From assembly GCA_020847095.1 (NCBI GenBank), contig JADLCR010000064.1:1-55395 (forward strand): 55,395 nucleotides of DNA. The letters run 5' to 3'. Position numbers and translations under genes: made by a program. Positions 5,026 through 55,395 of this stretch are shown piece after piece. Within the stretch, counting starts at the first letter, position 1; each line of letters opens with the position of its first letter. The notes under the pieces were generated by a model. It had not been told where the DNA came from, did not search any database, and saw only the letters and a list, made by a program, of their open reading frames with translations. Origin of the DNA: Oligoflexia bacterium (GTDB taxonomy: Bacteria > Bdellovibrionota > Bdellovibrionia > JABDDW01).

Positions 5026-6378
5026 TTATTGAAACAGCTTTTGGGCGCGATCCGGTGTCACGCTCATGTGATGGGGATTTGGATAACGCGTTTTGGATAG
5101 ATTTGACGATTTAGGACTTCCCATTACGGCTTGATCAAAATGAGATTTCAAAGGCAGTCCTGAGATCGTTTCTAGATCAGAACGAAAACTTTCAGTTGTT
5201 ATTGTGTTGAACAACCGAAACTTCAGTAATTCTCTAAGAGCGCCGTCCATTCCACCGAACGGTTTAAATAAATGATCTAAATATCGAATAAAGCGGGCTC
5301 CGCTTGTGTAAGCCTTTCTGTCGGTCTGACGAAAATACGGCGAGTGACTTGCCATTCCCGTCCCGACCACGCCGATTGAGTCAGCAGAGTTAGACCCGTG
5401 ATCGGCCCAAGTTGTTATGGCCTCATCAATCCATCCCGAATTTCCGTTTGCGGGCATTATGCCTCGTGCAAAGTAGCTATGGATCAACTCGTGATTGAGT
5501 GAATTAAAATCAGTAACAGTGGCTCCAGCGTACTCCATTCCACCACTCACATCTTCTTGAGCGTAAATGATCACTTGATCATGTTTCCAAGTTCCAAAGC
5601 GCCTTTCCAGATCTTGGAGACTGACGTGAGCCTGGGTTTCAAACTTGCCTACGATTCCAGCAGCACTGCTATAAACAAGAACCGGCACAGTGCGACCATC
5701 TTTAGTTTTAAATTGTGATTTAAGCTCGGTAAATCGCCCTTCAACATACATGTGCAAGTAAAATGAACTTGAAGTGAAATATTCGGGAAATCTGATCTGT
5801 AAGGTGTCTTGAGATAACCAGGTTACCGTACCGTTAGTGACAATTCTTTGATTCAACTTGTGGGAGTCTCGAACAAACTTAAAGACTAAAGTTCGAGGTG
5901 CTTGATCGAACTCAAAGTTAGCCGGCAAGTACCTTTCAAGAAATCCCCGATCGGTCAGATCATTCATCGTCCATAACCAGTTGATGCCACTGCTACCCAT
6001 AGCCGCACCTTTGATTTCACCCTTTATGATCATCTGGTGACGACCCGGAGCCACTGACTGCATGGCAATGCGCAATTTGGTCTCGTCGGTAGGATCTTTG
6101 ATCAAGGCTTGTGTGGTCGGCACGCCATCCATAATGACTTCGGTGGGATCCTTCTCAACGTCGAAAATAGGAAACCCGTGCTCTAATGCCTCGAAGTCAA
6201 TGGTTGATTGGTAAAAAAGCTTGGACTGTTTGTGATCAACTTGAATTTCATCTTGAACGTTAACAATGTCTACAAAGATTGCGTTTCCCGACCCCATTGA
6301 AAACGATGGGGGTTGTCCATGCCCAAAAGCGATCGATTGAACAAACAAACACGCAGCGGCTCCAAGCCAGCTTTTCAT
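5026..6378 (-). CDS. Secreted M1-like zinc metallopeptidase (gluzincin)
   Basis: A 450-residue protein with a signal peptide (MKSWLGAAACLFVQSIAFG). It carries GGMEYAG (~279-285), the counterpart of the M1 GAMEN exopeptidase motif, followed by HELIH (296-300) and, exactly 18 residues later, E319 in WIDEA. This HExxH-x18-E zinc site is complete, so the enzyme should be active. The N-terminal ~230 residues would form the beta-rich domain typical of M1/M61 enzymes. It should act in the periplasm or outside the cell on peptides or proteins. A CAAGGAG ribosome site precedes the ATG. It is the last gene of a minus-strand operon, 17 bp after the MFS transporter gene, suggesting linked peptide breakdown and uptake. 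Subfamily (M1 or M61) is uncertain. Confidence 0.85.
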   Translation of the reverse strand: MKSWLGAAACLFVQSIAFGHGQPPSFSMGSGNAIFVDIVNVQDEIQVDHKQSKLFYQSTIDFEALEHGFPIFDVEKDPTEVIMDGVPTTQALIKDPTDETKLRIAMQSVAPGRHQMIIKGEIKGAAMGSSGINWLWTMNDLTDRGFLERYLPANFEFDQAPRTLVFKFVRDSHKLNQRIVTNGTVTWLSQDTLQIRFPEYFTSSSFYLHMYVEGRFTELKSQFKTKDGRTVPVLVYSSAAGIVGKFETQAHVSLQDLERRFGTWKHDQVIIYAQEDVSGGMEYAGATVTDFNSLNHELIHSYFARGIMPANGNSGWIDEAITTWADHGSNSADSIGVVGTGMASHSPYFRQTDRKAYTSGARFIRYLDHLFKPFGGMDGALRELLKFRLFNTITTESFRSDLETISGLPLKSHFDQAVMGSPKSSNLSKTRYPNPHHMSVTPDRAQKLFQ

Positions 6379-6395
6379 TTCTTTCTCCTTGAAAC

Positions 6396-7613
6396 TTATA
6401 ACTCCTCAACAAAATCCAAGTTCGACCCAAAGGATTCTTTCAAATGCCCCAGGGCCCATAACGCCAAAGCGATACAAATTAAGCCTACCGCTAATGCGCC
6501 GTAAATCAATCCGAATTGATGCTTAAATGCTTCAAATGCCCAAGTGATGGGCACGACCGCGCCCCGCACAAAGTTGGGAACGGTTGTCGTAACCGTAGCC
6601 CGCAGGTTCGTACCGAATTGCTCGGCCGCATTTGTTACAAACACCGCCCAATAACCCACGGCAAAACCCAGTGGCAAGCACATCCAATAAAGATGAGAGG
6701 GCTTTGACCAGCCGCCAAATAGGTAAAGAACGATACAAATCAAAGTCAGCCAAATAAAAATTCCAAGAATTTTGCGACGGCTCTTCACAACCTGACTAAA
6801 AAGACCGCTCGAAAGATCGCCCAGCACAAGTCCGATATACGTAAACATAACAGAGCTACCAGCACTCACAGGATCTTGAATGCCGTAGGCTTTTCCAAAT
6901 TCTGGAGAAAAGGTGACCAATATTCCAATAGAAAACCAGATCGGAAGCCCTACGAGGATGCAGTTCATATAGCGAAAAAAGCGCTCTTTCGAAAAAACTA
7001 ACTGAAGAAGGTCTCCGCGTTTCACATGATGTTTTTTCTTTAATGAATCGAACATTCCCGACTCTTGCACCGCAATTCGAAGCCCCAACAAAGCAAGCCC
7101 TAGGGCACCACCCACGAAGTAGGCTTGTTTCCAAGTGAGATACTCTCCGATGATGGCGGCAAAAACCGCACCCATGACTCCAACAGACGCCACGATTGTT
7201 GTTCCAACGCCACGCTTCTCTTTGGTCATCAATTCTGAAACCAGTGTAATGCCTGCGCCTAACTCTCCGGCTAGTCCCACCCCTGCCAAAAACCGCCAAA
7301 GAGCGTACGCTTCAATACTGGTCACAAGCCCATTGGCAATGTTGGCCACCGAATACATGAAAATGGATCCGAGCAGCACACTCAATCGTCCGCGCTTGTC
7401 CCCAAGAATTCCCCAAAAAACTCCCCCAATCAGCATGCCCGCCATTTGACAATTCAAAAGCATGACACCAGTAGATAAAATTTCAGGTTCCGGAACCGCA
7501 AGATCCTTAAGACTTGAAATGCGAACAATGCTAAAAATGAGTAGGTCGTAAACGTCGACGAAGTAGCCGAGCGCTGCAACAACAACCGCCCCTTTAACGC
7601 CTTTTTGGCTCAT
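6396..7613 (-). CDS. MFS transporter
   Basis: A 405-residue protein with about 12 hydrophobic segments. The cytoplasmic loop between segments 2 and 3 carries GDKRGR, the MFS motif A, and a second conserved block (RFLAGVGLAGELGAG) lies in segment 4. The arrangement resembles metabolite/proton symporters of the sugar- or organic-acid-transporter type; the substrate cannot be read from the sequence. A GAGGGG ribosome site lies just before the ATG. The gene starts 7 bp after the rsmJ stop and is followed by the M1-type peptidase gene, so import of a peptide or amino-acid product is possible. Confidence 0.85.
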   Translation of the reverse strand: MSQKGVKGAVVVAALGYFVDVYDLLIFSIVRISSLKDLAVPEPEILSTGVMLLNCQMAGMLIGGVFWGILGDKRGRLSVLLGSIFMYSVANIANGLVTSIEAYALWRFLAGVGLAGELGAGITLVSELMTKEKRGVGTTIVASVGVMGAVFAAIIGEYLTWKQAYFVGGALGLALLGLRIAVQESGMFDSLKKKHHVKRGDLLQLVFSKERFFRYMNCILVGLPIWFSIGILVTFSPEFGKAYGIQDPVSAGSSVMFTYIGLVLGDLSSGLFSQVVKSRRKILGIFIWLTLICIVLYLFGGWSKPSHLYWMCLPLGFAVGYWAVFVTNAAEQFGTNLRATVTTTVPNFVRGAVVPITWAFEAFKHQFGLIYGALAVGLICIALALWALGHLKESFGSNLDFVEEL

Positions 7614-7620
7614 GGTCCCC

Positions 7621-8337
7621 TCATGCTTTCAAATAAACATCAAACCTGATCGCTATTCCTTTAAAACTGATGGAAACATCTTTGGCAAGGGGTTCTTGTT
7701 TAATATGCCGCTTGACTACAATGCGATGAAACCTTGTGCGGGCCAATTTCAAAACTTCCGAAAAATCTGTCTGAGGGTCGTCGGCTACGAGCCGTTCAAG
7801 AATCTGGATGTCTTTCTTGGGAAGGCTTTTACGGTTAGGAGGTTTGAACATAGGGTCGAGGTAGAGACGTTCCCCGATAGGCATGTCAGTCACAATTTGA
7901 TGAATATCAGCACAGGTCACGGCGACAAATTGGTTTTCTGTGGGCAAATGCCGTTGAACATACTCAAGCATCAATGCCAGCGCTGGATTTTGCTCTATAG
8001 CCGAAACGCGATAACCTTTATGCGATAACACAAACGCATCTCGTCCAAGACCTGCGGTTCCGTCAATGACCTCTCCGGGTGTACCCATGGCCCGAAGCAA
8101 GAGATCAAAATCATTTTGCTTAAGACGATAGCCCAAACGCCCCTCATTGGGAGAAATCGAAAGCCCCGAGAGCTCTGGATGCTTTTTGTCGACAAGTTCT
8201 ATTCCGGATTCAGTCAGCGTCAGAACAAAATCAGCATTTAGGTGACCTGATTGATCAAAAGGAATCCCAAATTTTAATCCTAAGTTTTGAGCCTGGTCGC
8301 GAAGCTCAGTGGACTGACAATGAATGGCCAGCTTCAC
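7621..8337 (-). CDS. rsmJ: 16S rRNA (guanine-1516-N2)-methyltransferase RsmJ
   Basis: A 238-residue class I SAM methyltransferase. The SAM-binding GxGxG-like loop is DGTAGLGRDAF (~91-101), followed by the acidic AIEQNP. The catalytic-type DPMF motif is followed by basic residues (KPPNRKSLPKKD), and the C-terminal block RIVVKRHIKQEPLA...GIAIRFDVYL is characteristic of RsmJ. The family methylates G1516 of small-subunit rRNA. The start is a GTG at 8337 with GGGAG 7 nt upstream, overlapping the end of the upstream methyltransferase gene by 32 bp, so the two are probably translated together. It is slightly shorter than E. coli RsmJ (250 residues). Confidence 0.88.
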   Translation of the reverse strand: MKLAIHCQSTELRDQAQNLGLKFGIPFDQSGHLNADFVLTLTESGIELVDKKHPELSGLSISPNEGRLGYRLKQNDFDLLLRAMGTPGEVIDGTAGLGRDAFVLSHKGYRVSAIEQNPALALMLEYVQRHLPTENQFVAVTCADIHQIVTDMPIGERLYLDPMFKPPNRKSLPKKDIQILERLVADDPQTDFSEVLKLARTRFHRIVVKRHIKQEPLAKDVSISFKGIAIRFDVYLKA

Positions 8338-22034: not shown

Positions 22035-23951
22035 ATGTGTCAGTTGTGGGGGACCTCTTTGAAACACCTAGTTCGTACGCTCGGAATCGTCGGGGCTTTT
22101 GCTTTTGCACTCGCATGTAGCGATGTAAAACTCACCCGTCCTGACAACTACATCGCTGCCGGTCAGTCGCAAGCGATCGTTGGCAGTCTGCCTCAGGCAT
22201 CGGTTCCTTCAAATGAGAGACTGATCATCATTCTAGACATGAGTAATTCAGCCGTTCGAGGATCCTGTCCCGATGAGGTTGATGATCCTCGTTTTCCTTC
22301 AGAAGAAACCAGCCCCTGTGGATCAGGATTTGATAACAAAGGCGATAGGTTTACCTGGGCTCAAAAATGGATTGATGATTTTGCTTCGGCAGGCTTGAGT
22401 GACTTCAAAGTGATGCTCGTGCCCTTTGCTGGCGGAGACGCCTCGTATCCACAAGATCAAACAGACATTCAAAACATGATTTTTCAAAACTCGGCGGGAG
22501 CAAAAGCCTATTTAAATATTTTGAAACAAAGGCATGACAAGGCAGCAGCCAAATTCAATGCCGGGCAAGGCACTCCTAACGACAGTCTTGGAACAAGCAT
22601 ATTCCTTCAAGGTTTAGACTATGCTCATACGGTTTTGGACGCCGAACTTTCTGCATTAGGCGGAAAGGCGCACGATACTAAGTTTGACATCGTTGTCGTC
22701 AGCGATGGAATTCCGACGCCTCGACAAAAAGACTACGACATCATACTTGGGCCATGTCTCGAAACTGAGAGGCGCTTAGCCGAAGGCACCCGACCGTGCA
22801 CCGATTCGGGCGATGATTTTGCGTGTCGTGTTTGTGAACCGTATATCTCAGCTGTTAAGCGTAATCTGGGTGATCCCATGCTGAACAATCCGGATCAAGT
22901 ATGGCTTAAGGCTTTAGGCCTTTCTGGGCTGGTTAGAAATCGGGGCTTTGGAGTTTCAAGACTCACGTTGAAGCTCACCCAACCTCACCCTGAATTTATT
23001 GACGTCAATCGCAATCGTCCAATTGAAGAACTGGCCGACCCCCGCAATCAAATTGCGGAGATAAACTTGCTTCGCTATCTGGCAAATAAAATGAATTTGA
23101 TTGTTCAGCAGTCATCAACTGACGAGCCGCCATTTAGATACGACGGATTTTCAAGTGGTGGAAAAACATATCGCCTGAGTGATCACATCGTTGTCAATCT
23201 CAATGGCCGCGTCAATGCAGCTGGCAAGCTTGTAGTCGACAGTGACGGCGATGGCTTAGATGATATTTCAGAAACCTCGGCAGGGCTGGACGCGAAGAAA
23301 AGCCGCACTAACGGCTATTGCTTGGATGGAATCACCCATATTTTTGGTTGCAAGCAATTGGGCTGTCGTCCCGAAGTCGATACTGACGGAGATGGACTTA
23401 ATCAATGTGAAGAGGATGTTTTAAGTCTAGATGACGGTCGGTTTGATTCGGATGGCGATGGCATCCCCGATCTCTATGAAGTTTATTATTCAACTCGCCT
23501 TCTTCAAGATGATCGTCGTCTTGACGACAGCGCCGATGGAATATCAAACAAGCAAGCTTTCTTAAAAGGTGCCGTTGCCCAAGCGGACCTTAAGGTCGCT
23601 AAAGAAAGTTCTCTGATCTCATCGGAACTGCGCTATTTGGGAGACAAGAACGGGCAAGCCCAGTACTCGCTCGTGATTAAAAGCATTCCGCTTGTGGCCA
23701 CCACTGCCGTCAACGATAATTTTGAACTTTTTCGCTCAGAGTCTCTGGATCCTCTAACCAAAGTTTCAGACGGAATGAAGCTCACGGGAACGGCTCACGG
23801 CCCTGCAGTTAATCAAATCATCATTATTTTAAAAGCAGTTTCAATCAAAGACCCTGAGGATGTTGTTTATTTTATGAAACGTGTGGAAGGGCAGTTTGGG
23901 AAAAGCTCCTTGCCGCCTATTAGTTTTAGCACCTTTGTGCAGATGTATTGA
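22035..23951 (+). CDS. Cassette 1 protein A: vWA-domain lipoprotein with Asp-rich (thrombospondin type 3-like) repeats
   Basis: The start at 22035 has GGAG 9 nt upstream (a TTG at 22020 is less likely). The signal peptide ends in FALAC, a good lipobox at Cys28, followed by SDVKLTRPD. A vWA-like domain begins at ~62; its metal site has DMSNS (DxSxS), a Thr in GTSIFLQG and an Asp in VVVSDGIPTP. Asp-rich calcium-type repeats lie at ~398 (DSDGDGLDD), ~447 (DTDGDGLNQ) and ~469 (DSDGDGIPD), mixed with Cys residues. The C-terminal ~120 residues hold SIPLVATTAV...NQIIIILKAVSI. It is a clear paralogue of the protein at 51398. Probably an outer-membrane or surface lipoprotein; function unknown. Protein B follows at once. 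Confidence 0.85.
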   Translation: MCQLWGTSLKHLVRTLGIVGAFAFALACSDVKLTRPDNYIAAGQSQAIVGSLPQASVPSNERLIIILDMSNSAVRGSCPDEVDDPRFPSEETSPCGSGFDNKGDRFTWAQKWIDDFASAGLSDFKVMLVPFAGGDASYPQDQTDIQNMIFQNSAGAKAYLNILKQRHDKAAAKFNAGQGTPNDSLGTSIFLQGLDYAHTVLDAELSALGGKAHDTKFDIVVVSDGIPTPRQKDYDIILGPCLETERRLAEGTRPCTDSGDDFACRVCEPYISAVKRNLGDPMLNNPDQVWLKALGLSGLVRNRGFGVSRLTLKLTQPHPEFIDVNRNRPIEELADPRNQIAEINLLRYLANKMNLIVQQSSTDEPPFRYDGFSSGGKTYRLSDHIVVNLNGRVNAAGKLVVDSDGDGLDDISETSAGLDAKKSRTNGYCLDGITHIFGCKQLGCRPEVDTDGDGLNQCEEDVLSLDDGRFDSDGDGIPDLYEVYYSTRLLQDDRRLDDSADGISNKQAFLKGAVAQADLKVAKESSLISSELRYLGDKNGQAQYSLVIKSIPLVATTAVNDNFELFRSESLDPLTKVSDGMKLTGTAHGPAVNQIIIILKAVSIKDPEDVVYFMKRVEGQFGKSSLPPISFSTFVQMY

Positions 23952-23959
23952 GGCTCAAA

Positions 23960-25597
23960 GTGGTTCACATAAAGCAAAACATATTCATTCGATTGATGAT
24001 GTGCCTCTCACTATTAGCTTTTGCCTCTGCTTGTTCTGATATTCGCTTGGCCAAACGAAACATTTCCACCTACTCCGTGAATGACGGGCTCAAAGGTAGT
24101 TTTTGCGCCCAACCACCGCTGAGCACCAGCACGCCGATGAAGGTGGTGTTCTTAATTGATATGTCGTTATCAAACATTGGGCGCATTACTGACGGCGGAG
24201 CCTTCGATCGAAGCCAAGCCACGGATCCAACGGCAGTTAGAATTCAAAAGGCGATCGATTACATCAATAACTGCAGTGGAACAAGTGCTAACAAGTTTGC
24301 GATCATTGGATTCAGCGATACTATTTTAAACAATCCGCCAACCAACGATCGATGCCGATTCTTCCGAGATAAAAATACTGCACTTAATGACCTCAATGTT
24401 CTCAAAAATCAACAGACAGCAGCCAATGCGCAGCCAACTGGCGTGATGCAAACGACTTACTATTCGGCGGCTTTTGACTGTTTGGACACGTTAGTACGCG
24501 AAGATATTGGCAATACAGATCCAAGACTTCTTAAAAGCCAATTCTACACTTCGTTTTTCTTAACAGACGGAGCTCCTACGACTCAAAATGGAGAGCCCAT
24601 TCCAACCAACCAAGCTTTTCAGTACGCCAACAAAGTGAAGTCGACTGCGTTTAATGCCAAGCAAGCCACTGGCGGCTTTTTGCTTCAAAGCGTTTACTAT
24701 GGAAATTTAGATTACGGAACAGCTCAACAATTTTTAGATCCGATTTCTCAAGCTGGTGGGACCACCGGCACTATCAAAATTGATGATCTTTCTCGCATTG
24801 ATTTTTGCACTTTAGCACGCTCACCCATTCGAGTGCCTTACAACATCACCCAATTCGCAGTTATCAATGCAACCGCTCATATGAAAAATCAGGCCTTGCT
24901 GCCCGACTCCGATGGTGACGGAGTCATCGACTCTGAAGATGGCGCTCCGACCAATCGTCGCGGATCTTCGATTTTAATCGACGCCGTTTGTAAACTTATG
25001 GGTCCTGGATGCGCTAATTTTATTCCCACCAGTTGTGATGCTACAAAAGTAGATCCGTTTTTTGGATTAAGTGAATGCGACCGAGAGGCCATGTCCTTGG
25101 CCGGAGTGCACGATCAAGATTTGGATGGTATTCCAGACTCCGTAGAAATTCTCAAGGGCTCACTACCGTTGACTTACGACGCCGACCAACAAAGCGGAGA
25201 CGGTCTTACGTTAATAGAAAAAATTCGCCGAGGACGACAAGTTTACTTCTATGAAAACAAAATTCCTGAAGCCATGGAGATGCGCTACAAACTTCAGCCT
25301 ATCGGAGCTGGATCTTGTGGAGCTGGAGGAACCGAGTGGTCTTTTGATGTTTTCGGTAATCCCCTTGTTCCAACTCTAGCCTACTCAACTTCAAATGCTA
25401 ACGAAAATGAGTTTATGGGCCATGCGGCCAACGAAAATGTTTTGCTGGTTTATTACTTTGCTCAACCGGTGAATTCATCGTTACTCGGAACTCAGGTTTA
25501 CGTTTCTCGCCCATTACGAATGAAATACGGATCAAAAGACGGAATTTATCTGCGCCCCGGTGATTTCAGACTTGTAGGCGAAATTCCCACAAGGTAG
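23960..25597 (+). CDS. Cassette 1 protein B: vWA-domain lipoprotein with Asp-rich repeats
   Basis: The GTG at 23960 is chosen because GAGG, lying across the stop of gene A, is 6 nt upstream; a TTG at 23948 and ATGs at 23996 are alternatives. The signal peptide ends LLAFASAC, then SDIRL. The vWA domain starts at ~62, with DMSLS, a Thr in QTTYYSAAFD and Asp in FFLTDGAPT. Calcium-type repeats follow at ~313 (DSDGDGVID) and ~384 (DQDLDGIPD), then SGDGLTLIEKIRRGRQ. The C-terminal module has NPLVPTLAYS...NENEFMGHAANENVL. Paralogue of the protein at 53445 and more distantly related to protein A. Probably functions with A at the cell surface; the partner or ligand is unknown. Confidence 0.85.
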   Translation: MVHIKQNIFIRLMMCLSLLAFASACSDIRLAKRNISTYSVNDGLKGSFCAQPPLSTSTPMKVVFLIDMSLSNIGRITDGGAFDRSQATDPTAVRIQKAIDYINNCSGTSANKFAIIGFSDTILNNPPTNDRCRFFRDKNTALNDLNVLKNQQTAANAQPTGVMQTTYYSAAFDCLDTLVREDIGNTDPRLLKSQFYTSFFLTDGAPTTQNGEPIPTNQAFQYANKVKSTAFNAKQATGGFLLQSVYYGNLDYGTAQQFLDPISQAGGTTGTIKIDDLSRIDFCTLARSPIRVPYNITQFAVINATAHMKNQALLPDSDGDGVIDSEDGAPTNRRGSSILIDAVCKLMGPGCANFIPTSCDATKVDPFFGLSECDREAMSLAGVHDQDLDGIPDSVEILKGSLPLTYDADQQSGDGLTLIEKIRRGRQVYFYENKIPEAMEMRYKLQPIGAGSCGAGGTEWSFDVFGNPLVPTLAYSTSNANENEFMGHAANENVLLVYYFAQPVNSSLLGTQVYVSRPLRMKYGSKDGIYLRPGDFRLVGEIPTR

Positions 25598-25608
25598 GAA
25601 TATAGAAT

Positions 25609-26049
25609 ATGAAGTTTTTGATTTTCGTCATTCTCGCCACAACTTACCTTATGTTACCTCAGCCATTACTGGCTCAAGCACCAAAGTGTTTAAGAATCGA
25701 AGGAAAGACTTATTGCCCTCCTTCAACGGAACCGGAAATTGGCCCCTGTCGCGATTGCAAATATTGCCGCGGCGATATTTTTACCTTTACTCGCGCTGAT
25801 ACCGAAATGAGCTGCCGCCCATGCGTTTGTGGCGTGGATTGTCCCCCAGGACCTGGTGGCGAAGGCTGTGGCCAAAAGGAATTTTGCGAGCCTAAGTCCT
25901 GCAAGCTTGTACAGGCTGAATGTTACCGTGATGTCGTTACCAAACCTGGAATTCCAAACGGCAAGAAATGCAAATGCCCACCACCACCAGACGGCTATCA
26001 ACTTTGTGACAAGCCCCAATGCCGACCTGATGAAAGATGCAAAATCTAA
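25609..26049 (+). CDS. Cassette 1 protein C: small secreted Cys-rich protein
   Basis: A 146-residue protein. The signal peptide (MKFLIFVILATTYLMLPQPLLAQA) leaves a mature chain of ~122 residues with 18 Cys, rich in Pro, Gly, Lys and Asp. The Cys occur in close pairs (PCRDCKYCRG, CRPCVCGVDC, KCKC), suggesting many disulphides or metal binding. It starts 11 bp after gene B, with AGGA upstream. The PCxDCxxCRG block is shared with the partial protein at 55134, which occupies the same place in cassette 2. Its stop overlaps the serA stop on the other strand. No known family was recognised. Confidence 0.75.
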   Translation: MKFLIFVILATTYLMLPQPLLAQAPKCLRIEGKTYCPPSTEPEIGPCRDCKYCRGDIFTFTRADTEMSCRPCVCGVDCPPGPGGEGCGQKEFCEPKSCKLVQAECYRDVVTKPGIPNGKKCKCPPPPDGYQLCDKPQCRPDERCKI

Positions 26050-44416: not shown

Positions 44417-46075
44417 CTAAAACCCGTACTCGAGCATGAGGTTGAAGTAGTGACCGGTGATGGTCACATCATTTCGCGACTGAGAAGGTGTAAAACCTGG
44501 AGTTTCGAGAACTTTGTAACCGGCCTTTTCTGAGCGATACGCGTAACCCAAAAATCCAACCATTTGATCGGAAATGGCAAGCGAGCCCATCACACCCAAC
44601 TGATAGCTGAGATCAGAAATGTTCTCTTTTCCATTGGGCGTGCCCATTCCCATTGTTGAATGGTAAAGTTGCAAATTCAATTGCGCGCCGAGCTTTCTAG
44701 TGAGTCCGCGCATCAGATTGGCCGAAAGCACCGGTCCCACAGTGGTGATTTTACTTTGCGTAGAGATGTTGTCCCCCATTCCGACCGTGACCGGAAGTTC
44801 TCGATACATCAATCCGCCAGCAAAACGAAGCTGACCCCACCCACCGGCACGATAGCGGTAAACGCCGCTTAACGCTCCTGACACATAGGTGAAAGTTTGC
44901 GCCTTAATTGTAAATCCCGACATATCAGCCCAGGTGAGCATTCCCCACTTCGAATTATCTCCAAACCACGTACCCACACCTAAACGACCTGTTCCACCGA
45001 TGGCTGGATACTGAGTTTCATATCCAGGGGATTGATCAACTGAAACGCCTTTGTAATCGACCATGGTGATGTAGTAGCTGGCGAAGCCGAACAGGTTGCT
45101 CTTTGATCCATAACTTCCTTCTGATTTAACCTGCTCAACGGCTGCAGGATTTCGGGTTCCTAAGTTCATTGAATCGAATTCCGCTATGGTGATTTTAGAT
45201 GGCGCACGACGATCGGCTTGAGCCAATACCTTAATTCGGTAATGCCCACTCGGTAATGGTTTTTGATACCGACGTCCAGGTTTATTGACGTTTCGAGACT
45301 CGATAGTTCTCCATTTTCCATCGGCTTCTAAAGCTTCTAGAGAATAGTCATACTTAATGGCTTGATCGACTTTTTTCCATTTGATGAGTTCAGTGTTGAT
45401 ATTCTCAATTTGCTCAAATTCTGGACTCTCTAGAGCGCCGCCGTAAACTTCAAACCGGGCCGCTTGTTCAAATAAATCTCCTTCAATTTCTTCTTCAGCA
45501 ATGGGTGTGACTTGCCAACTAAAGGCGTCGGCCACAGGAATTTCTAAGGCGGCCGACTCCCCAGAATCAGTAGATTCAGCGACGACTTGCCCCTTTTGAT
45601 TGAACACTTGGACTTTGTAACGGGCGGCGCCTTGCACAGGCTGCCAGCTAAAAGTGACTTTTTCTTTTTCAGCTTCCTCCGAACGAATGACTTCGCCGGT
45701 TTGAGGTTTCAGCGGACGACTAGGCGGAAGCTTAACAGATAGTTCTTGAGCCGGACTCCAATCTCCTGGTACGCCTCGACTGTCAACCGTTCTAACGCGC
45801 AGTTCATATTTGCCCGGAACCAGTTTCGCGTTCCACGTATTGGATTTTAGTTTAAAAACAACAGGCTTTTTCTTTTCGCCACCCTTGAGAACGCGCGTGA
45901 CTTCTACTTGATATCCTTGGTTACCTTCTATTTCTTCGAGTTCCATTTCTAGAGAACGACGAGGAAGCTCTGCAAAGGCACTGACGCCCAAAATAGAAAT
46001 CAGAAGAAACACTCCTCCAACTCCCCCAAGGGACAACCACTTCCTAGCCTTCCGCACTACCAAAGCGGTGTTCAT
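44417..46075 (-). CDS. Fibronectin type III-like protein with predicted C-terminal outer-membrane beta-barrel
   Basis: About 552 residues. A signal-type hydrophobic segment (~16-35, ending SAFAEL) is followed by a region of FN3-like repeats (KYELRVRTVDSRGVPGDWSPA, VTFSWQPVQGAARYKVQVFN, YRIKVLAQAD). From ~320 on the chain is an amphipathic barrel-like region (Gly, Tyr and alternating residues) that ends in LEYGF; a terminal aromatic residue is typical of outer-membrane barrels. The ATG at 46075 begins 3 bases after the stop of the FecR-domain gene, so the two are coupled. It may anchor a periplasmic assembly to the outer membrane. Function unknown. Confidence 0.75.
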   Translation of the reverse strand: MNTALVVRKARKWLSLGGVGGVFLLISILGVSAFAELPRRSLEMELEEIEGNQGYQVEVTRVLKGGEKKKPVVFKLKSNTWNAKLVPGKYELRVRTVDSRGVPGDWSPAQELSVKLPPSRPLKPQTGEVIRSEEAEKEKVTFSWQPVQGAARYKVQVFNQKGQVVAESTDSGESAALEIPVADAFSWQVTPIAEEEIEGDLFEQAARFEVYGGALESPEFEQIENINTELIKWKKVDQAIKYDYSLEALEADGKWRTIESRNVNKPGRRYQKPLPSGHYRIKVLAQADRRAPSKITIAEFDSMNLGTRNPAAVEQVKSEGSYGSKSNLFGFASYYITMVDYKGVSVDQSPGYETQYPAIGGTGRLGVGTWFGDNSKWGMLTWADMSGFTIKAQTFTYVSGALSGVYRYRAGGWGQLRFAGGLMYRELPVTVGMGDNISTQSKITTVGPVLSANLMRGLTRKLGAQLNLQLYHSTMGMGTPNGKENISDLSYQLGVMGSLAISDQMVGFLGYAYRSEKAGYKVLETPGFTPSQSRNDVTITGHYFNLMLEYGF

Positions 46076-46078
46076 CAA

Positions 46079-48190
46079 TTATTTGATCTTTAGCTTTTTA
46101 AACCCCGGCGCTCTTACATCGCTCGTATCTGGAACCCGCAGCTCACGCGCCTGACCGGCCGGTCCCATTCGTCCACTTTCATCTACTGATGCCAAAGAAA
46201 CCTGGTATTGACCGGGCAATAATCCGGTCAACGTTCCTTGGCTTCCGTCAAACTTGTCAGTTTTCATAACTTTGCCGTCTGGAGCTTTAAGAATGACTGC
46301 CGTTTGCTTAGCTCCTTTGACTGTGGTCCAGCCAATGCCGACAGCACCCTTTTTGGTTGCCACCAGAGATGCCGGCATGCGCTCTTGAAAGTTCGGTGCG
46401 GGCAACAACGGTCTTTGGATGACGTTTATCTTTCTAAAATCTGTCTGTGCAACGGGCTTTCCGTTCGCATCAAGTGCGATAGCTCGAACCAAGTACTTTC
46501 CGTCGGTGGGTACTTCAACGGTAGCCATCAAACCATTTGATGCTTGTTCCTTCTTTGAATCTTCACCCTCAGCTTGAACTGCCACTACAAACTTTGCAGC
46601 TTTAACTGCTTGATTAGCCTTCCATTGAACAGTCACACTGGGTTTTAGAGTCGCGTATTGATGGTTTTCTTCTAACTTTCCATCAGCCCAAACCAGCCTG
46701 GGCAGATCTTCGATGGCAAACGTTCTAACGGCACTTGGTTGAGAGTGCTTTCCTTTAGAATCGATGGATTCGACAAACCATTTGTAGGTTCCTGCCTTCC
46801 AATTTGGAATTCGAATCTGGGTCACATCGACTTCTTTTTCAAAAACATTCTGAGGTTTGTCATTTTGGACGGCATCAACTTTCAAACGGTACTTAGTCAC
46901 TCCCGGCACGGTTTCCCAAACTAAAAATGCTCCGCCATTCATGACTTTTTCAAAGCTAATTCGCGCTTCATTTGCCGGAACTTTAAGTTGAGGGGCGTCG
47001 AGAGCCAGTGAGGTACTGAGATTAAATTTAACCACTTCTCCATTGATTCGAATGGCTGTTCCCGGTCGCAAACCAGAAATTCTCAGAAAGTACTCACCTT
47101 CGCCTTTAGGTTGCAGAGAATAGACCCCGGTATCGTCCACAAACTCCGTGGCCACCAGGTTTTTAAAATTCGAGTCCTTTGCGAGTTCGAGTTGAAGCTT
47201 GATTAACTTCGATGGGTTCGCCCAGCGTACGTCAAGAGCTTTGGTTTCGGCATTGAGCGCTGTTCGACTGTCTTTCACAGGTGTGATGATCTTTGGCGGA
47301 GTGTCCGCAACGACGACCAACTTGTTCGTAGGCGAAAACACAATTTGTTTTGGATCTTTTCTGTTAGTGGCCACCAAGCGCCAGTACTGAGTTCCCTGTC
47401 CCAAAATGGCTTTGATTTGACCAACCGACCCTTTGACGACGGTGCCCATGGGCTTAAGCACTTCTCTCTTCGAGCCCACTTCAAGTCGAATGTCAAAATC
47501 ATCGGCCACCGGTCGAAAATTAAAACCGATAGCTTCTTTTTGGTCACCCCGAATATAAACGCGATCGGTAGCTTGAGGGCTAGAAATTTTGAAGAATGCC
47601 GCTTGTACATCAACGCCACCGGCACCGATGCGGCCCGCATTATTTTGATCGAGTGTGAGAGTTTTATCCCCTGCGCTGACTTGAGCGGTACCACGCATAA
47701 CTTGCAGGTTAATATCTTGGCCCGAACCTCGTCCGAGGCTTACGTCGGCGTTCGAAAGGTTAATACTGGTGTTACCGGATTTAAGTGCCAGCCCGCCTTC
47801 ACCGCCCCCACCTTTTACGAACAAATTACCTTTGACGAAATCCAATGCCACTTTACCGTCGGAATCATCGATGACGACAACGCTATCCGGCTCAAGATCA
47901 ACTTCGGCTCCTGATTTGAAAACTATTTTTGCTTCCGCATCGGGACCGGTTCTCACTGCTTCACCGGCAAAAAGTGGTTCTTCGTCACCGATCGACTGCC
48001 AAATAACTCGCTTCACCGATCGCTTCTGAACTTCGTTTTTTGAAGAATCTAAGTGCGCGAGCAATCGACGGTTGTTGTCGTCACCTCGCGAAGATTTGGC
48101 GAGATCGTACTTGTACCAAAGAAAAGAAAGCAAAATTCCAGCGATACTCAATGCTGCAGCAAGGAGCAGTTTTCGGGCGTAAGCGCTCAT
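46079..48190 (-). CDS. FecR-domain protein with repeated fibronectin/Ig-like domains
   Basis: A 703-residue protein. One N-terminal membrane segment (~8-27) is followed by a FecR-type domain at ~60-200 (IGDEEPLFAGEAVRTGPDAEAKIVFKSGAEVDLEPDS). Several FN3/Ig-like domains follow, each with a WxxVxGxxKYRLxV-like pattern (e.g. FLVWETVPGVTKYRLKV, SVTVQWKAN). It ends with a basic KKLKIK tail. No ECF sigma factor or TonB receptor is adjacent, so this is probably not iron signalling but a structural periplasmic protein. It lies 31 bp after hslO and is coupled to the barrel protein gene downstream. Confidence 0.8.
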   Translation of the reverse strand: MSAYARKLLLAAALSIAGILLSFLWYKYDLAKSSRGDDNNRRLLAHLDSSKNEVQKRSVKRVIWQSIGDEEPLFAGEAVRTGPDAEAKIVFKSGAEVDLEPDSVVVIDDSDGKVALDFVKGNLFVKGGGGEGGLALKSGNTSINLSNADVSLGRGSGQDINLQVMRGTAQVSAGDKTLTLDQNNAGRIGAGGVDVQAAFFKISSPQATDRVYIRGDQKEAIGFNFRPVADDFDIRLEVGSKREVLKPMGTVVKGSVGQIKAILGQGTQYWRLVATNRKDPKQIVFSPTNKLVVVADTPPKIITPVKDSRTALNAETKALDVRWANPSKLIKLQLELAKDSNFKNLVATEFVDDTGVYSLQPKGEGEYFLRISGLRPGTAIRINGEVVKFNLSTSLALDAPQLKVPANEARISFEKVMNGGAFLVWETVPGVTKYRLKVDAVQNDKPQNVFEKEVDVTQIRIPNWKAGTYKWFVESIDSKGKHSQPSAVRTFAIEDLPRLVWADGKLEENHQYATLKPSVTVQWKANQAVKAAKFVVAVQAEGEDSKKEQASNGLMATVEVPTDGKYLVRAIALDANGKPVAQTDFRKINVIQRPLLPAPNFQERMPASLVATKKGAVGIGWTTVKGAKQTAVILKAPDGKVMKTDKFDGSQGTLTGLLPGQYQVSLASVDESGRMGPAGQARELRVPDTSDVRAPGFKKLKIK

Positions 48191-49809: not shown

Positions 49810-51216
49810 ATGAAATCCTTCGATTTAATCGTGATCGGCTCAGGCCCTTCTGGCCACAAGGGGGCCATTCAGGCTGCCAAGTTTGGTAAACGCGTGGCCC
49901 TGATTGAAAAAGAAAAGGTTTTTGGCGGAGCCTGCATTCACACAGGTACCCTCCCTAGCAAATCTCTTAGAGAAAGTATCTACAACATCTACATGCTTCG
50001 ATTAAGTGACGAATCATGGACCCGCAAAAAGATTCGCAAAGAAATGACTCTTGAGGATCTTACGGCTCGTAAAAACAGGGTTGTTAATAACGAAAATGAA
50101 ATCATATCTCATCAGATTCGCACCAATGGAATAAGCGTCTACCACGGTGCCGCACAATTCATTGATCGCAATTCGGTGAAAGTTGTCACGCAAGAAGGCG
50201 GCGAAATTACATTGAAGTCTGAACACTTCTTGATCGCGACAGGATCTAAACCGGTTCGGCCGTCAAACATTCCTTTTGACGACATTCATGTTTGCGATAG
50301 CGATAGCATTTTGGGGTTAAAATCCATTCCCGAGTCCATGACTGTCATTGGCGGCGGGGTTATTGGCTGTGAATATGCAAGTATGTTCGCTGCTCTTGGA
50401 GTTGATCTCCATCTTGTTGACAAGAAAAGTGACATTCTCCCTTTCATGGATCAAGAAGTAACTGAAGTTCTTAAAAAGGCTCTCATCGACCAGGGATGTC
50501 GGCTTTATTTGGGAGACGAATGTACAAAAATATCAAAAAACGCAAAGGGCCTGATAACAACCGAGCTCAAAAGCGGCAAGATTATTGAAACAACCCACCT
50601 TCTCTATGCCATGGGACGGGCCCCTCAATCGCCGGCGTTAAAAGTCAAAGAGCTTGGCATCAAAACCGACGAACGCGGTTATATCGATGTGAAAAAAAAT
50701 TATCAAACGGCTGTAGATAATATTTACGCCGTTGGCGACGTAATCGGATTTCCAAGTCTCGCGTCTTCTGGATTTGAGCAAGGCCGCTTGGCTGTTTGTC
50801 ACGCCTTCGATATTCCTCACGGTGATTTTCCCGATGAGTTTCCCTATGGCATTTATACGATTCCGGAAATTTCAAGCGTTGGACTAACGGAAGAAGAAAT
50901 CGCGCAGAAAAAAATCCCCTATGAAGTTGGCAGAGCTGAATATGCCGAAACAGCGCGCGGACAGATTATTTTGGATTCTAACGGCTTGCTCAAAATTATT
51001 TTTTGCCCAGAGACCCTGAAGATTTACGGAATCCATATCATTGGTCCTTCAGCAAGCGAGCTTGTTCATTTGGGACAAATGGTTATGTCTCTTGGGGGGA
51101 ATATGAAAACCCTTATCCGGAATATTTTTAATTACCCAACATTAGCCGAAGCCTACAAAATTGCTGCCTTTAACGGACTCAACAAGGTCTTCAAAAAAGG
51201 TGGAATTCACTTCTAG
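49810..51216 (+). CDS. sthA: Soluble pyridine nucleotide transhydrogenase
   Basis: A 468-residue flavoprotein (E. coli SthA has 466). The FAD site is VIGSGPSGHKGAIQAAKFGKRV. The region that would carry a disulphide reads GGACIHTGTLPSKSLRE, with one Cys and Thr in place of the second, as expected for SthA and unlike lipoamide dehydrogenase. The NAD site is TVIGGGVIGCEYASMFA. It moves reducing equivalents between NADPH and NADH in the cytoplasm. It is driven by its own, apparently leaderless, promoter. Cassette 2 follows after a 181-bp gap. Confidence 0.93.
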   Translation: MKSFDLIVIGSGPSGHKGAIQAAKFGKRVALIEKEKVFGGACIHTGTLPSKSLRESIYNIYMLRLSDESWTRKKIRKEMTLEDLTARKNRVVNNENEIISHQIRTNGISVYHGAAQFIDRNSVKVVTQEGGEITLKSEHFLIATGSKPVRPSNIPFDDIHVCDSDSILGLKSIPESMTVIGGGVIGCEYASMFAALGVDLHLVDKKSDILPFMDQEVTEVLKKALIDQGCRLYLGDECTKISKNAKGLITTELKSGKIIETTHLLYAMGRAPQSPALKVKELGIKTDERGYIDVKKNYQTAVDNIYAVGDVIGFPSLASSGFEQGRLAVCHAFDIPHGDFPDEFPYGIYTIPEISSVGLTEEEIAQKKIPYEVGRAEYAETARGQIILDSNGLLKIIFCPETLKIYGIHIIGPSASELVHLGQMVMSLGGNMKTLIRNIFNYPTLAEAYKIAAFNGLNKVFKKGGIHF

Positions 51217-51397: not shown

Positions 51398-53443
51398 ATG
51401 AAGCGGCGAAAAACTAAGTTTAATTGGTCAAAGTATTGGTCAACCAATTCTAAAAAGCTGAAAAGCTTTTGGAAGAACTTTTTGAAAACCAAAAGGCGTT
51501 GGTTTCAAACCTGGGGCATAGGCGTTTTAGCTCTTAGCCTTGGATTTGTTTATCAAAACTGCTCTGATACCCGACTTCGCCGACCCGACGTCGCTCAAAT
51601 CTCAATTGCAAGCCAAGCTCCAGTTGAGGGAACCGGATTACCTCCCATTGAGGTAAGCGCTATTCAACGTCTCGTTGTGGTTCTTGATATGAGTCACTCG
51701 GCTGTGCGAGGAGCTTGCCCCGATGACTTAGATGATCCTGTTATTAATGGAAATCCTTGTGACCCCGGGTTCGATCCAACGGGCCTGCGATTTGAATGGG
51801 TCCGAGGCTGGATCAATAACTACGGATTGGGAGCCGGTGACGTTAAAGTCATGCTTGTTCCATATTCAGGCGGCAACAGACTACGTCCCAATCCTCAGAT
51901 TCCAAATCCCTTTTTGCCAGACGGCCCAAACATGACATTCATTTCGAAATCGGCAGCACTCTTATACTTGGATACCTTAAAGGCTGAACAAGTCGAAACT
52001 TTTAACCGTATGGATTCTAATGACAAGGCTCAAATCATGGGCACCTCAATCATCATGCAGGGTCTCAATTACGCTCGAGCTAAAATCGATCAAGAACTTC
52101 AAGTCATCGATGCGTCTAACAACAACATGCGTTCCCGATTTGATGTCATTGTGATGGGTGACGGAGTGCCTCGTCCCATGGTTCATCACTACGCCTCAGC
52201 TATGAGATTGCCTAAAGATGCCGATGGCAACCCAGCCTGCGAGCCTCTTGCGCAATCCGATGACTGCGGAAGTCTCGATCCTGACGTCTGCGACGCTTGT
52301 CGCGAAGTGGGCCGAGCCTTTTTAGGTTCAGTTGGTGATCCCATGCAAAACTACCCCCCATCAGTGGTACCTAAGCTCTTAGAAATTCAGGGTCTCTTTC
52401 GAAACTATGGCGTCAGCAGCAATTTAAATCTGGCTCAAGTTTGTCCCGACCGCATCCCGGCTGGACAAAATGAGCCTGTCACCGAATCAACAGACGTGAA
52501 TGATCCTAACGTCAATATTTTGCAATTCTTATCTCAGCGCACCGGACTGACGCTTCATCAATCATGCTCCTCGGTGGCACCTATTCAGATTCAATCGGCC
52601 GCCGGAACCGGAGATAACTATCTTGTGTCTGACTTTATTGTCGTCAATCTCAACGCCCGCGTTACCGGTTTTAACACGATCGAAGCAGACTCAGATGGTG
52701 ATGGCCTCACCGATAACGAGGAGTTAACCTTGGGTACGGATCCAACAAATCCGAGATCTGATCGTTCTGCAGATTCAGGCCAATGTCTCGACAGCATTAA
52801 AGAGCGCTATGGTTGCAAACGCCCCGCTCTTGGTTGCTTTGCTAATCTTGATGCCGATGGCGACGGCTTAAATTCGTGCGAAGAAGATACGATCTCAACA
52901 GATGACTTCAGAGTTGATAGTGATAACGATGGTATCCCAAATCTTCATGAAGTCCTGTTTCGAACGCAGATTCTCGAGGACGATAACCTTCAAGACGCAA
53001 GCAGTGATGGTTTATCAAATAAGCAAGCCTATTTAAAAGGTGCCACAGCACAAGCTGACTTGTCTGTCGTTCCTGCTAATCAACTTGTTCGCACCGAATT
53101 TAGAGACCTCGGCGCGACAGCAAACAGCCCCCACGAGTATTATCTCCATATCGTTGGAGTGCCTTTGGTTAACACCAAAGCAGTTCCCGACGCTAATCGC
53201 TTTAATATGTTCCGTGCAGCCAACTTGAATCCGGCAACAATTATTCAAGATGATTCAAATTTTGGTCCAATCACTCATGCCGAAGGAATCAACCAAATCG
53301 TTGTTTTGATTCGTGCCGTATCGATCATCAATCCAAAAGACGCCATTTGGTTTATCAAACGATTTGATGTTGCGTTTAGTAACCCTCAATTTCCCCCACT
53401 TGTGCTTTCGACATTTAAGCAAGTGAAGCGAGGAGGAGACTGA
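51398..53443 (+). CDS. Cassette 2 protein A: vWA-domain protein with Asp-rich (thrombospondin type 3-like) repeats
   Basis: A 681-residue paralogue of the protein at 22035. A long basic N-terminal stretch (~1-38) precedes one hydrophobic segment that ends in GFVYQNC, then SDTRLRRPD. The Cys stands where cassette 1 has a normal lipobox, but here Asn precedes it. The vWA metal site has DMSHS (~96), a Thr in GTSIIMQG and Asp in VMGDGVPRP. Calcium-type repeats occur at ~429 (DSDGDGLTD), ~484 (DADGDGLNS) and ~504 (DSDNDGIPN). The C-terminal module has VGVPLVNTKAV...NQIVVLIRAVSI. GGAG lies about 8 nt before the ATG. Probably membrane-anchored or lipidated and exported. Function unknown. Confidence 0.85.
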   Translation: MKRRKTKFNWSKYWSTNSKKLKSFWKNFLKTKRRWFQTWGIGVLALSLGFVYQNCSDTRLRRPDVAQISIASQAPVEGTGLPPIEVSAIQRLVVVLDMSHSAVRGACPDDLDDPVINGNPCDPGFDPTGLRFEWVRGWINNYGLGAGDVKVMLVPYSGGNRLRPNPQIPNPFLPDGPNMTFISKSAALLYLDTLKAEQVETFNRMDSNDKAQIMGTSIIMQGLNYARAKIDQELQVIDASNNNMRSRFDVIVMGDGVPRPMVHHYASAMRLPKDADGNPACEPLAQSDDCGSLDPDVCDACREVGRAFLGSVGDPMQNYPPSVVPKLLEIQGLFRNYGVSSNLNLAQVCPDRIPAGQNEPVTESTDVNDPNVNILQFLSQRTGLTLHQSCSSVAPIQIQSAAGTGDNYLVSDFIVVNLNARVTGFNTIEADSDGDGLTDNEELTLGTDPTNPRSDRSADSGQCLDSIKERYGCKRPALGCFANLDADGDGLNSCEEDTISTDDFRVDSDNDGIPNLHEVLFRTQILEDDNLQDASSDGLSNKQAYLKGATAQADLSVVPANQLVRTEFRDLGATANSPHEYYLHIVGVPLVNTKAVPDANRFNMFRAANLNPATIIQDDSNFGPITHAEGINQIVVLIRAVSIINPKDAIWFIKRFDVAFSNPQFPPLVLSTFKQVKRGGD

Positions 53444-53444
53444 G

Positions 53445-55109
53445 ATGCCACGCTGGATTAAACATTCAGCCGTCATCTTGCTCTTTTTGGGGCTTGTCAC
53501 CACTCCGTACATCAATTGTGGTGATGTGAAGCTAACCAAAATGAAAGAGGCCAGCGTGGTTAGCAATTCCATTAAGGTGGAGGGAACTTTCTGTAGCCAG
53601 CCACCTCCTTCATCGACAAATCCTTTAAGCGTTATTTTCATCATCGATATGTCGGGTTCTAACATTAATCGCCCAGGCCAACCTCCTGGTACCGATATCG
53701 GCGGCTTAAGATTCACTCGCGTTGAAGAGTTTATTAATAACTGTAACGCAGGTTCAAATGTTCGATACTCGATCATTCCATTTTCGACAAATATCTTGCT
53801 CAATGACGCCAATAATTCGCGCTGCAAAACGTTTTACAACGCTAACCAAGCGCGAAGCGTGGTGGGGCAATTACGAAATATTCAAAATTCAAATCCATCG
53901 GCTATGGCCTATACCAACTATCAATCGGCTCTCGATTGTTTAAATGTTCTTATGCAAGAGGACATCGACACCTTACTAGCCCAATCGCCGGCGGCGGCCA
54001 AAAATCAGTTTTATACGACTTACTTTTTAACTGACGGAGCCCCAACAGATGAAGTGGGCACCCCCATTCCTGCGGGTCAAATCGATGCCGTCGCTGCAGC
54101 CTATGCCGGAAGTGTCCGAGCAACATCGATATTTACGAAACAAGCGGCCGGTGGATTTTTATTTCAATCGGTTTATTACGGAAATCGCGATTTCACTTTA
54201 GCCAACCGATTTTTGCTCCCCATGACTCAAGCTGGGGGCACCGCCGCAACAATTCAAGCGACAGATCTTTCATCGCCAGGAACTTTGAACTTTTGTCAAA
54301 TGACCTTTGAACCTGTGTTTGTGCCATTCTCTGTTAAGAATCCGTTTTTGATGAACTACAATGCTTTAATGAAAAATGGTGTGCTGCTACCCGACTCTGA
54401 TTCTGACGGGCGCCCGGACTCGCAAGACACAACTCCTGTCGCTCGCCGCACGCCAAACACCAAAGAACTTTTTGAAGGCATATGTAACTTGATGCCTGCC
54501 GGAACTTGTGCGGCCTTTAATACCAGCGGCTGCAACAACACTCTTATTGATCTCTTCGGATTTACGGCCTGCGATCGCCAAGTCATGTCTCTAGATGGCA
54601 AAGGCGATTTGGACCACGACGGGATGCCCGATCTTGCGGAAATTCTCAAAGGCGGATTGGTCTCAACTAAAGACGATGACTATACGGCTGGCGATGGACT
54701 TACGAATTTGCAAAAATTAAGAAAGGGTCGCCAGTTAAGATTTTTTGAAGTGGGTATTGATCCAAAAACCGAGATTAATGCGGTTTTCACAAGACAAAAT
54801 GTGAACACGATTTGCCAAGAAGGAACGGAAGAGTACAAGATCAGTGTCCACAACCTTCCATTGGTTCGAACGAAAGCGTACTCATCGGCCAATGCCACTG
54901 AAAATAGTTATTTCGGCCATGGAGAAGAAGAGAATTTAGCCAATATCTATTTCTATTCGGAACCTTCAAATCCTGAGCTTGCATCCACACAGATTTTTGG
55001 TTTGAAGCCCGATGTGGTGCGCACCAAAATGAAATTTAGATTTGGAGAATCAAAACATATTTATTTAGATCCAAGCGATTTTACCGTTGTTGGAACATTT
55101 GAAGAGTAA
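53445..55109 (+). CDS. Cassette 2 protein B: vWA-domain protein with Asp-rich repeats
   Basis: A 554-residue paralogue of the protein at 23960. The signal segment ends TPYINC, then GDVKL; as in its neighbour, Asn precedes the Cys. The vWA metal site has DMSGS (~67), a Thr in YTNYQSALD and Asp in YFLTDGAPTD. The FLFQSVYYGNRDF block is shared with cassette 1. Calcium-type repeats lie at ~315 (DSDSDGRPD) and ~387 (DLDHDGMPD), followed by AGDGLTNLQKLRKGRQ. The C-terminal module has NLPLVRTKAYS...NSYFGHGEEENLA. The ATG follows the stop of gene A by one base with a strong GGAGGAG, so the pair is tightly co-expressed. Confidence 0.85.
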   Translation: MPRWIKHSAVILLFLGLVTTPYINCGDVKLTKMKEASVVSNSIKVEGTFCSQPPPSSTNPLSVIFIIDMSGSNINRPGQPPGTDIGGLRFTRVEEFINNCNAGSNVRYSIIPFSTNILLNDANNSRCKTFYNANQARSVVGQLRNIQNSNPSAMAYTNYQSALDCLNVLMQEDIDTLLAQSPAAAKNQFYTTYFLTDGAPTDEVGTPIPAGQIDAVAAAYAGSVRATSIFTKQAAGGFLFQSVYYGNRDFTLANRFLLPMTQAGGTAATIQATDLSSPGTLNFCQMTFEPVFVPFSVKNPFLMNYNALMKNGVLLPDSDSDGRPDSQDTTPVARRTPNTKELFEGICNLMPAGTCAAFNTSGCNNTLIDLFGFTACDRQVMSLDGKGDLDHDGMPDLAEILKGGLVSTKDDDYTAGDGLTNLQKLRKGRQLRFFEVGIDPKTEINAVFTRQNVNTICQEGTEEYKISVHNLPLVRTKAYSSANATENSYFGHGEEENLANIYFYSEPSNPELASTQIFGLKPDVVRTKMKFRFGESKHIYLDPSDFTVVGTFEE

Positions 55110-55133: not shown

Positions 55134-55395
55134 ATGAGTCTCTTAAAACAAAATATGATCATTCTGGTGGCCCTATCGTGCCTCGCCATCCCTCGGGTAG
55201 GTTTTGCACAAGCGCAGCTTGGTCCCATGGACTGTAAGCCTTTAGAAACGCAAACCTTTTGCTTTCCTGGAACAATTCTTCCTCCTGGTGGAAATGAAAA
55301 CAATCCTTGTAGCGATTGTACATTTTGTCGGGGACCAGCGAAGACGATGATCAATTCAAGAATCCAGTGCGTTGAAGAAGAATGCGTTCGTTACG
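55134..55395 (+). CDS. Cassette 2 protein C: secreted Cys-rich protein (partial, runs off the right edge)
   Basis: The ATG at 55134 has GGAGG 5 nt upstream. The frame is open to the window end (87 codons). A signal peptide (MSLLKQNMIILVALSCLAIP...GFAQAQ) is followed by Cys-rich sequence: MDCKPL, FCFPG, PCSDCTFCRGP, QCVEEECVRY. The PCSDCTFCRG block corresponds to PCRDCKYCRG in the protein at 25609, and the position after gene B is the same, so it is the third gene of cassette 2. The C-terminus is missing. Confidence 0.75.
   Translation, partial: MSLLKQNMIILVALSCLAIPRVGFAQAQLGPMDCKPLETQTFCFPGTILPPGGNENNPCSDCTFCRGPAKTMINSRIQCVEEECVRY

Follow-up and report, generated by a model that had tools for sequence, protein, structure and literature searches.

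An adhesin-like cassette of predicted MIDAS/TSP3 lipoproteins with a Cys-rich partner, conserved and recurrently duplicated in Bdellovibrionota

CglB of Myxococcus xanthus is a vWA surface lipoprotein, the adhesin of gliding focal adhesions, where it is recruited by a Glt complex (PMC13104615); an analysis from 2011 reported CglB in Myxococcales genomes only (PMC3169522). Bd0875 of Bdellovibrio bacteriovorus, a MIDAS protein with a lipobox, is required for normal entry into prey, and the substitution D66A abolishes its function; the published description places the end of its small domain at residue 378 and mentions no TSP3 part (PMC11003981). The closest named model for the genes considered here is MtsD (NCBIfam NF047639), a "cell-cell cohesion protein" of about 650 aa with thrombospondin-3 repeats. 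The original prediction, that no described system has the architecture of these genes, was too strong: MtsD is collinear with them over its vWA and TSP3 parts, and functional analogues exist in CglB and Bd0875.

The window is the whole stretch of DNA analysed, 55,395 nucleotides, and makes up an entire contig (C64) of a 2.7-Mb assembly (G000) that is 97% complete. The ORF listing contains six ORFs in two same-strand groups, A1-B1-C1 (22035-26049) and A2-B2-C2 (51398 to the contig end), so that the proposed repeat of an A-B-C cassette in the same order and orientation is found just as described (Table 1). Since the contig ends where C2 runs off it, C2 is incomplete and the second cassette partial.

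Table 1. Positions in the window of the cassette genes, their motifs and one flanking gene
Feature	Position	Strand	Description
A1	22035..23951	+	Predicted lipoprotein, vWA/MIDAS domain and TSP3-type repeats; 638 aa from ATG; start in ORF list is TTG 22020
A1 MIDAS loop 1	22236..22250	+	DMSNS, aa 68-72; site completed by T187 (22593) and D224 (22704)
A1 Asp-rich TSP3-type repeats	23238..23468	+	aa 402-478
B1	23948..25597	+	Predicted lipoprotein, vWA/MIDAS, TSP3-type repeats and C-terminal beta domain; 549 aa as listed
B1 MIDAS loop 1	24158..24172	+	DMSLS, aa 71-75; site completed by T170 (24455) and D207 (24566)
B1 Asp-rich repeats	24905..25204	+	aa 320-328, about 389-397 and 411-419
C1	25609..26049	+	Predicted secreted Cys-rich protein, 146 aa, 18 Cys
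C1 motifs	25687-25716; 25744-25773	+	CLRIEGKTYC; PCRDCKYCRG
Oxidoreductase-like gene	49810..51216	+	Pyridine-nucleotide-disulfide-oxidoreductase-like, 468 aa; upstream flank of cassette 2, outside the cassette
A2	51398..53443	+	A1 paralogue, 681 aa; DMSHS, aa 97-101; TSP3_bac above Pfam cutoff
B2	53445..55109	+	B1 paralogue, 554 aa; DMSGS, aa 68-72
C2	55122..55395	+	C1 paralogue, ended by contig end; likely start 55134
C2 motifs	55233-55262; 55305-55334	+	CKPLETQTFC; PCSDCTFCRG

Two of the listed starts can probably be improved, judging by eye. B1 is listed from a TTG that overlaps the stop codon of A1; the likely start is GTG 23960, which is preceded by GAGG and fits better. For C2, ATG 55134, which lies behind GGAGG, is more likely than the listed start. 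B1 and C1 are separated by 11 nt, A2 and B2 by 1 nt, and B2 and C2 by 12 or 24 nt, depending on the start. Such short gaps (1-24 nt) on one strand are consistent with the proposed operons; a scan for sigma-70 promoters gave no signal above that of shuffled sequences. Two pairs of genes between the cassettes resemble cassette genes in size and were rejected as further cassettes. The 553/703-aa pair, read by eye and with Pfam, is a FecR/Ig-like protein with a partner of 553 aa, lying at 44417-48190 on the minus strand; genes similar to these in size and in order stand upstream of the cassette in a related genome, G002. The 558/718-aa pair, read by eye, consists of thioredoxin/TPR-like and polyphosphate-kinase-like proteins.

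What kind of proteins are A and B? AlphaFold models and Foldseek searches make both of them vWA-fold proteins. The model of B1 (pLDDT 88, pTM 0.84) matches PitA, beta3 integrin, PilB, RrgA, vWF A3 and integrin I domains, while that of A1 (pLDDT 83, pTM 0.74) finds its best matches in complement C2a/factor B and weaker ones in integrin beta. Both models have a secondary structure consistent with a vWA domain followed by the repeat stretch and then by C-terminal strands. Sequence searches see less of this. Pfam VWA matches occur only in some B-type relatives, and a search of PDB sequences with the A and B profiles returned weak matches only, to Ca-binding or unrelated proteins. The calcium-type repeats of the original prediction were located in A and B as Asp-rich TSP3-type repeats. 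Against the Pfam model TSP3_bac (PF18884, cutoff 25), A2 scores above the threshold (31.7) and A1 below it (16.1), B1 and B2 give no match, and at E 0.01 the model is matched by 14 of 22 A proteins and 14 of 27 B-type proteins.

The MIDAS sites (DxSxS...T...D) predicted for A and B are intact, their residues having been verified at the window coordinates and in the alignments of relatives. Among the 22 aligned A proteins the D/S/S residues and the downstream D are invariant and T is kept in at least 90%; among the 27 B-type proteins T170 and D207 are invariant and D/S/S are kept in at least 90%. Such retention across very divergent sequences is as expected of a working metal site. Lipoproteins are sorted to the outer membrane when the lipobox Cys lacks an Asp at +2. 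The lipobox Cys residues at positions 28 (A1), 55 (A2), 29 (B1) and 25 (B2) are followed by S, S, S and G, respectively, and behind a signal peptide this marks A and B as predicted outer-membrane lipoproteins.

It might be argued that the cassettes encode general proteins of the envelope or matrix, in which the vWA and TSP3 parts serve assembly or stability rather than adhesion; the nearness to glt genes, taken up below, would then reflect nothing but the clustering of envelope genes. It is true that vWA domains also occur in non-adhesive proteins, and the best matches of the A1 model are subunits of a complement convertase. The idea is nonetheless improbable, given that MIDAS residues have been retained across very divergent proteins and that the B1 model resembles the vWA domains of adhesins.

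The third protein, C, appears from its sequence to belong to a new Cys-rich family, with a conserved motif near the N-terminus and a fast-evolving remainder. The motif, C-x2-[LI]-E-x(3-8)-C, follows the signal peptide in all 20 C proteins, C1 and C2 included, and is absent from 1300 other ORFs (0/1300) and from 26 other Cys-rich ORFs (0/26), a contrast that is descriptive only, because the pattern was written after the C set had been viewed. Neither C1 nor three of its relatives has a Pfam match, and C1 has no NCBIfam match either. The block PCxDCxxCRG, noticed earlier as common to the two C genes, is indeed present in both, but it is not a signature of the family: it occurs in none of the 18 other C proteins.

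How widely is the cassette found? A first scan of contigs with B1 alone as the query found no relatives. A profile built from ten A proteins, run against 369 genomes of the phylum, found full-length A in 16 genomes besides the window's own, and among the A relatives the named matches are MAGs of Bdellovibrionales, Bdellovibrionaceae and Pseudobdellovibrio. Flanks that could be used were available for 19 A loci, from 16 genomes in six families (f1, f2, f3, f6, f7 and f8), and in every one of these B lies directly downstream of A; two loci that end at contig ends (L082, L084) and one whose A match is mainly to the TSP3 part (L088) were not counted. A Cys-rich C follows on the same strand in 18 of the 19, the sole exception being L047, where a motif search of the next 2.6 kb found none. 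The conserved order is A-B-[X]-C, in which C often comes after an inserted TSP3 lipoprotein (X) of about 315 aa. The co-occurrence of the three genes in order, the check set by the original prediction, is therefore seen in other genomes of the phylum, sometimes with inserted genes.

Individual loci depart from the common layout. A single A-B-X-C operon (L049, genome G031) contains a gene for a subtilisin-like lipoprotein ahead of C, at 6299-7792, and in G002 an extra 186-aa Cys-containing lipoprotein is encoded just upstream of A (L041, 7392-7952). Three short proteins of about 281-311 aa, on contigs C22, C11 and C19 of G041 (L144-L146), match the B profile over its vWA part only.

The resemblance to Bd0875 raises the question whether the cassettes, like that protein, serve the recognition or invasion of prey. 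Bd0875 sets a precedent for a role in prey entry that depends on the MIDAS site, and duplication together with a fast-changing C fits diversification against varied targets. Bd0875 as described is shorter, however, and has no described TSP3 part. A broad B profile has no match in 23 of 24 genomes tested, and the 13 among them that belong to the Bdellovibrio-like genus g10 all lack one; A is present in a further two genomes of that genus, G194 and G198. The genus is thus mostly without the A/B system, which makes a prey adhesin an unlikely reading and suggests that adhesion differs across the phylum.

The claim that the window holds three pairs of paralogues is borne out by full alignment for A1 and A2 (39% identity over 673 columns, E 1e-141) and for B1 and B2 (41% over 558 columns, E 4e-134). 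C1 and C2 are alike at the N-terminus only (29% over 82 aa; E 3e-7 in a two-sequence test), and their homology is better supported by the shared family motif. A and B are in turn distant paralogues of each other.

The main clades are common to the A and B trees. The two window copies fall together with that of G002 in a single clade (100/99 in the A tree, 99/98 in the B tree). A first tree made A1 and A2 sisters (92/93), a grouping that gave way when more rows were included, A1 then pairing with G002 (84/71); for B, a clade made up of the two window copies could not be rejected (p-AU 0.31). Since the duplication falls within the family-level clade of the window, it is not class-wide; the paralogy proposed originally stands. 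The upstream neighbors of cassette 2, including the 468-aa oxidoreductase-like gene, are those of the G002 cassette, and so cassette 2 occupies the position shared with G002. Other genomes carry two or three cassettes of their own. The two cassettes of G024 have sister A proteins (97/89), whereas the A tree spreads the cassettes of G253, G216 and G218 over different clades; lineage-specific and older copies therefore coexist.

The genome from which the window comes has a third, single B paralogue on contig C6 (L009, 6009-18717), and near it are matches to GltG (E 6e-38), TolQ, TolR, a TPR protein and GltC (E 3e-12). A single B paralogue likewise lies beside TolQ, TolR and GltG-like genes at L043 and L059, so that the arrangement occurs in three genomes of two families. 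The same genome also has a second type of vWA/TSP3 operon (L010, contig C61, 1321-11244), ordered X-B'-(1039 aa, Fn3)-B''-(729 aa), and G002 has an operon of the same X-B'-large protein-B''-lipoprotein type (L042, contig C15, 8919-19909). In this type the large protein has 1039-1128 aa and the last gene encodes a Cys-containing lipoprotein of 729-989 aa.

Linkage of this kind was assessed with leave-one-out profiles, the controls being 18-kb stretches taken from long contigs in twelve genomes of the set. Of the 43 vWA/TSP3 loci, 16 include a GltC or TolQ homologue, as does 1 of the 40 controls (Fisher p 5e-5); the loci mix A-B-C, B3 and X-B' types, vary in length and in several cases share a genome. 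For A loci alone the count is 6 of 23 (p 0.008). Neither cassette of the window has a glt neighbor. The coupling of cassette proteins to a motor is a hypothesis that this linkage supports.

I propose that the cassette encodes a surface adhesin module with MIDAS and TSP3 parts, akin to MtsD and CglB, which may be coupled to envelope motors of the Glt type; in this explanation I place somewhat better than even confidence. Most likely each window operon builds one calcium- and metal-dependent surface adhesin, an adhesive role read from predicted fold and motif. A and B would be anchored as lipoproteins in the outer membrane, where the vWA domain would grip a ligand through a divalent metal bound at its MIDAS site. 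The TSP3-type repeats that follow, with C-terminal beta strands behind them, would bind calcium, which would stabilize the display of that grip at the surface. C, in complex with A and B, may be their exported Cys-rich partner, acting as a secreted cap, a ligand or a specificity partner. Since related modules adjoin genes for outer-membrane, GltC, TPR and TolQR motor proteins, at least some of them probably supply Glt-type motors with their outer adhesive, the part played by CglB in Myxococcus, and others may work in contact between cells. Cassettes that are duplicated, or that persist from older duplications, would diversify binding.

A bolder version of the proposal is that A, B and C together form an adhesive, dependent on calcium and on MIDAS sites, whose three components replace CglB on the Glt-type motors of uncultured Bdellovibrionota, with C as its fast-evolving secreted specificity partner. 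I hold this only tentatively. Some observations weigh against the main proposal as well. Motor genes adjoin less than half of the related loci, and the linked set includes relatives of the B3 and X-B' types. GltC-like genes, moreover, are found in 349 of the 369 genomes, nearly everywhere, and full-length A in only those 16 others, and so Glt motors do not need A.

The same facts lend weight to an alternative that does without the motor, namely cohesion between cells, or between cell and prey, of the kind implied by the name of MtsD. A and B on neighboring cells would bind one another through calcium-stiffened repeats and MIDAS contacts. The closest named model is collinear over just these parts, glt neighbors are missing from the window cassettes and from most A loci, and full-length A is rare where GltC-like genes are nearly universal. 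On the other hand, the wider family is linked to Glt/Tol motor genes well above controls, the MtsD scores are far under that model's cutoff, and a literature search for MtsD yielded no paper. I consider motor-independent cohesion a possibility to be taken seriously, though a doubtful one.

If the surface adhesin module proposed above is the right reading, an uncultured relative of predatory Bdellovibrio offers testable candidates for the unknown adhesins of its group, because relatives of the cassette genes sometimes sit beside gliding-motor genes. The candidates comprise the conserved operon itself, the genome-linked MIDAS/TSP3 lipoprotein family and a putative new family of Cys-rich partners.

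Set against the systems with which I began, the cassette is most like MtsD: B covers the N-terminal 210 positions of that model, and A and X its TSP3 part. The scores, at best 39 bits for window proteins and 58 bits for any protein of the same genome, are far below the cutoff of 800, and the cassette has two divergent vWA proteins and a Cys-rich partner in an operon. CglD (NCBIfam NF033765, adventurous gliding lipoprotein) is matched weakly and only over TSP3-like repeats, with a best E of 2e-7 in a relative and 0.013 in A2, again far below the cutoff. No CglB model appears among the NCBIfam matches of A or B up to E 1, a result to be read with the presence of such a model in the library not established. 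CglB, as a vWA surface lipoprotein, is what A and B are predicted to be, and relatives of A and B adjoin genes for GltC-, outer-membrane and TolQR-like proteins; the TSP3 repeats and the Cys-rich partner set A and B apart. RrgA, PitA and PilB, MIDAS adhesins of Gram-positive pili, share the predicted fold of the B1 vWA domain, but they belong to sortase pili, have no sequence relation to B1, and give query TM-scores of 0.24 to 0.28 over the whole B1 model. Bd0875 and Bd1483, compared by description only, are MIDAS adhesins of the same bacterial group that combine a lipobox, a vWA/MIDAS domain and a small beta domain (PMC11003981); a TSP3 part and a Cys-rich partner are undescribed for them. 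Beside all of these, A-B-C stands as a real and conserved cassette of adhesin-like character that has been duplicated repeatedly, a variant on the MIDAS/TSP3 surface proteins that has what appears to be a new Cys-rich family for its partner.
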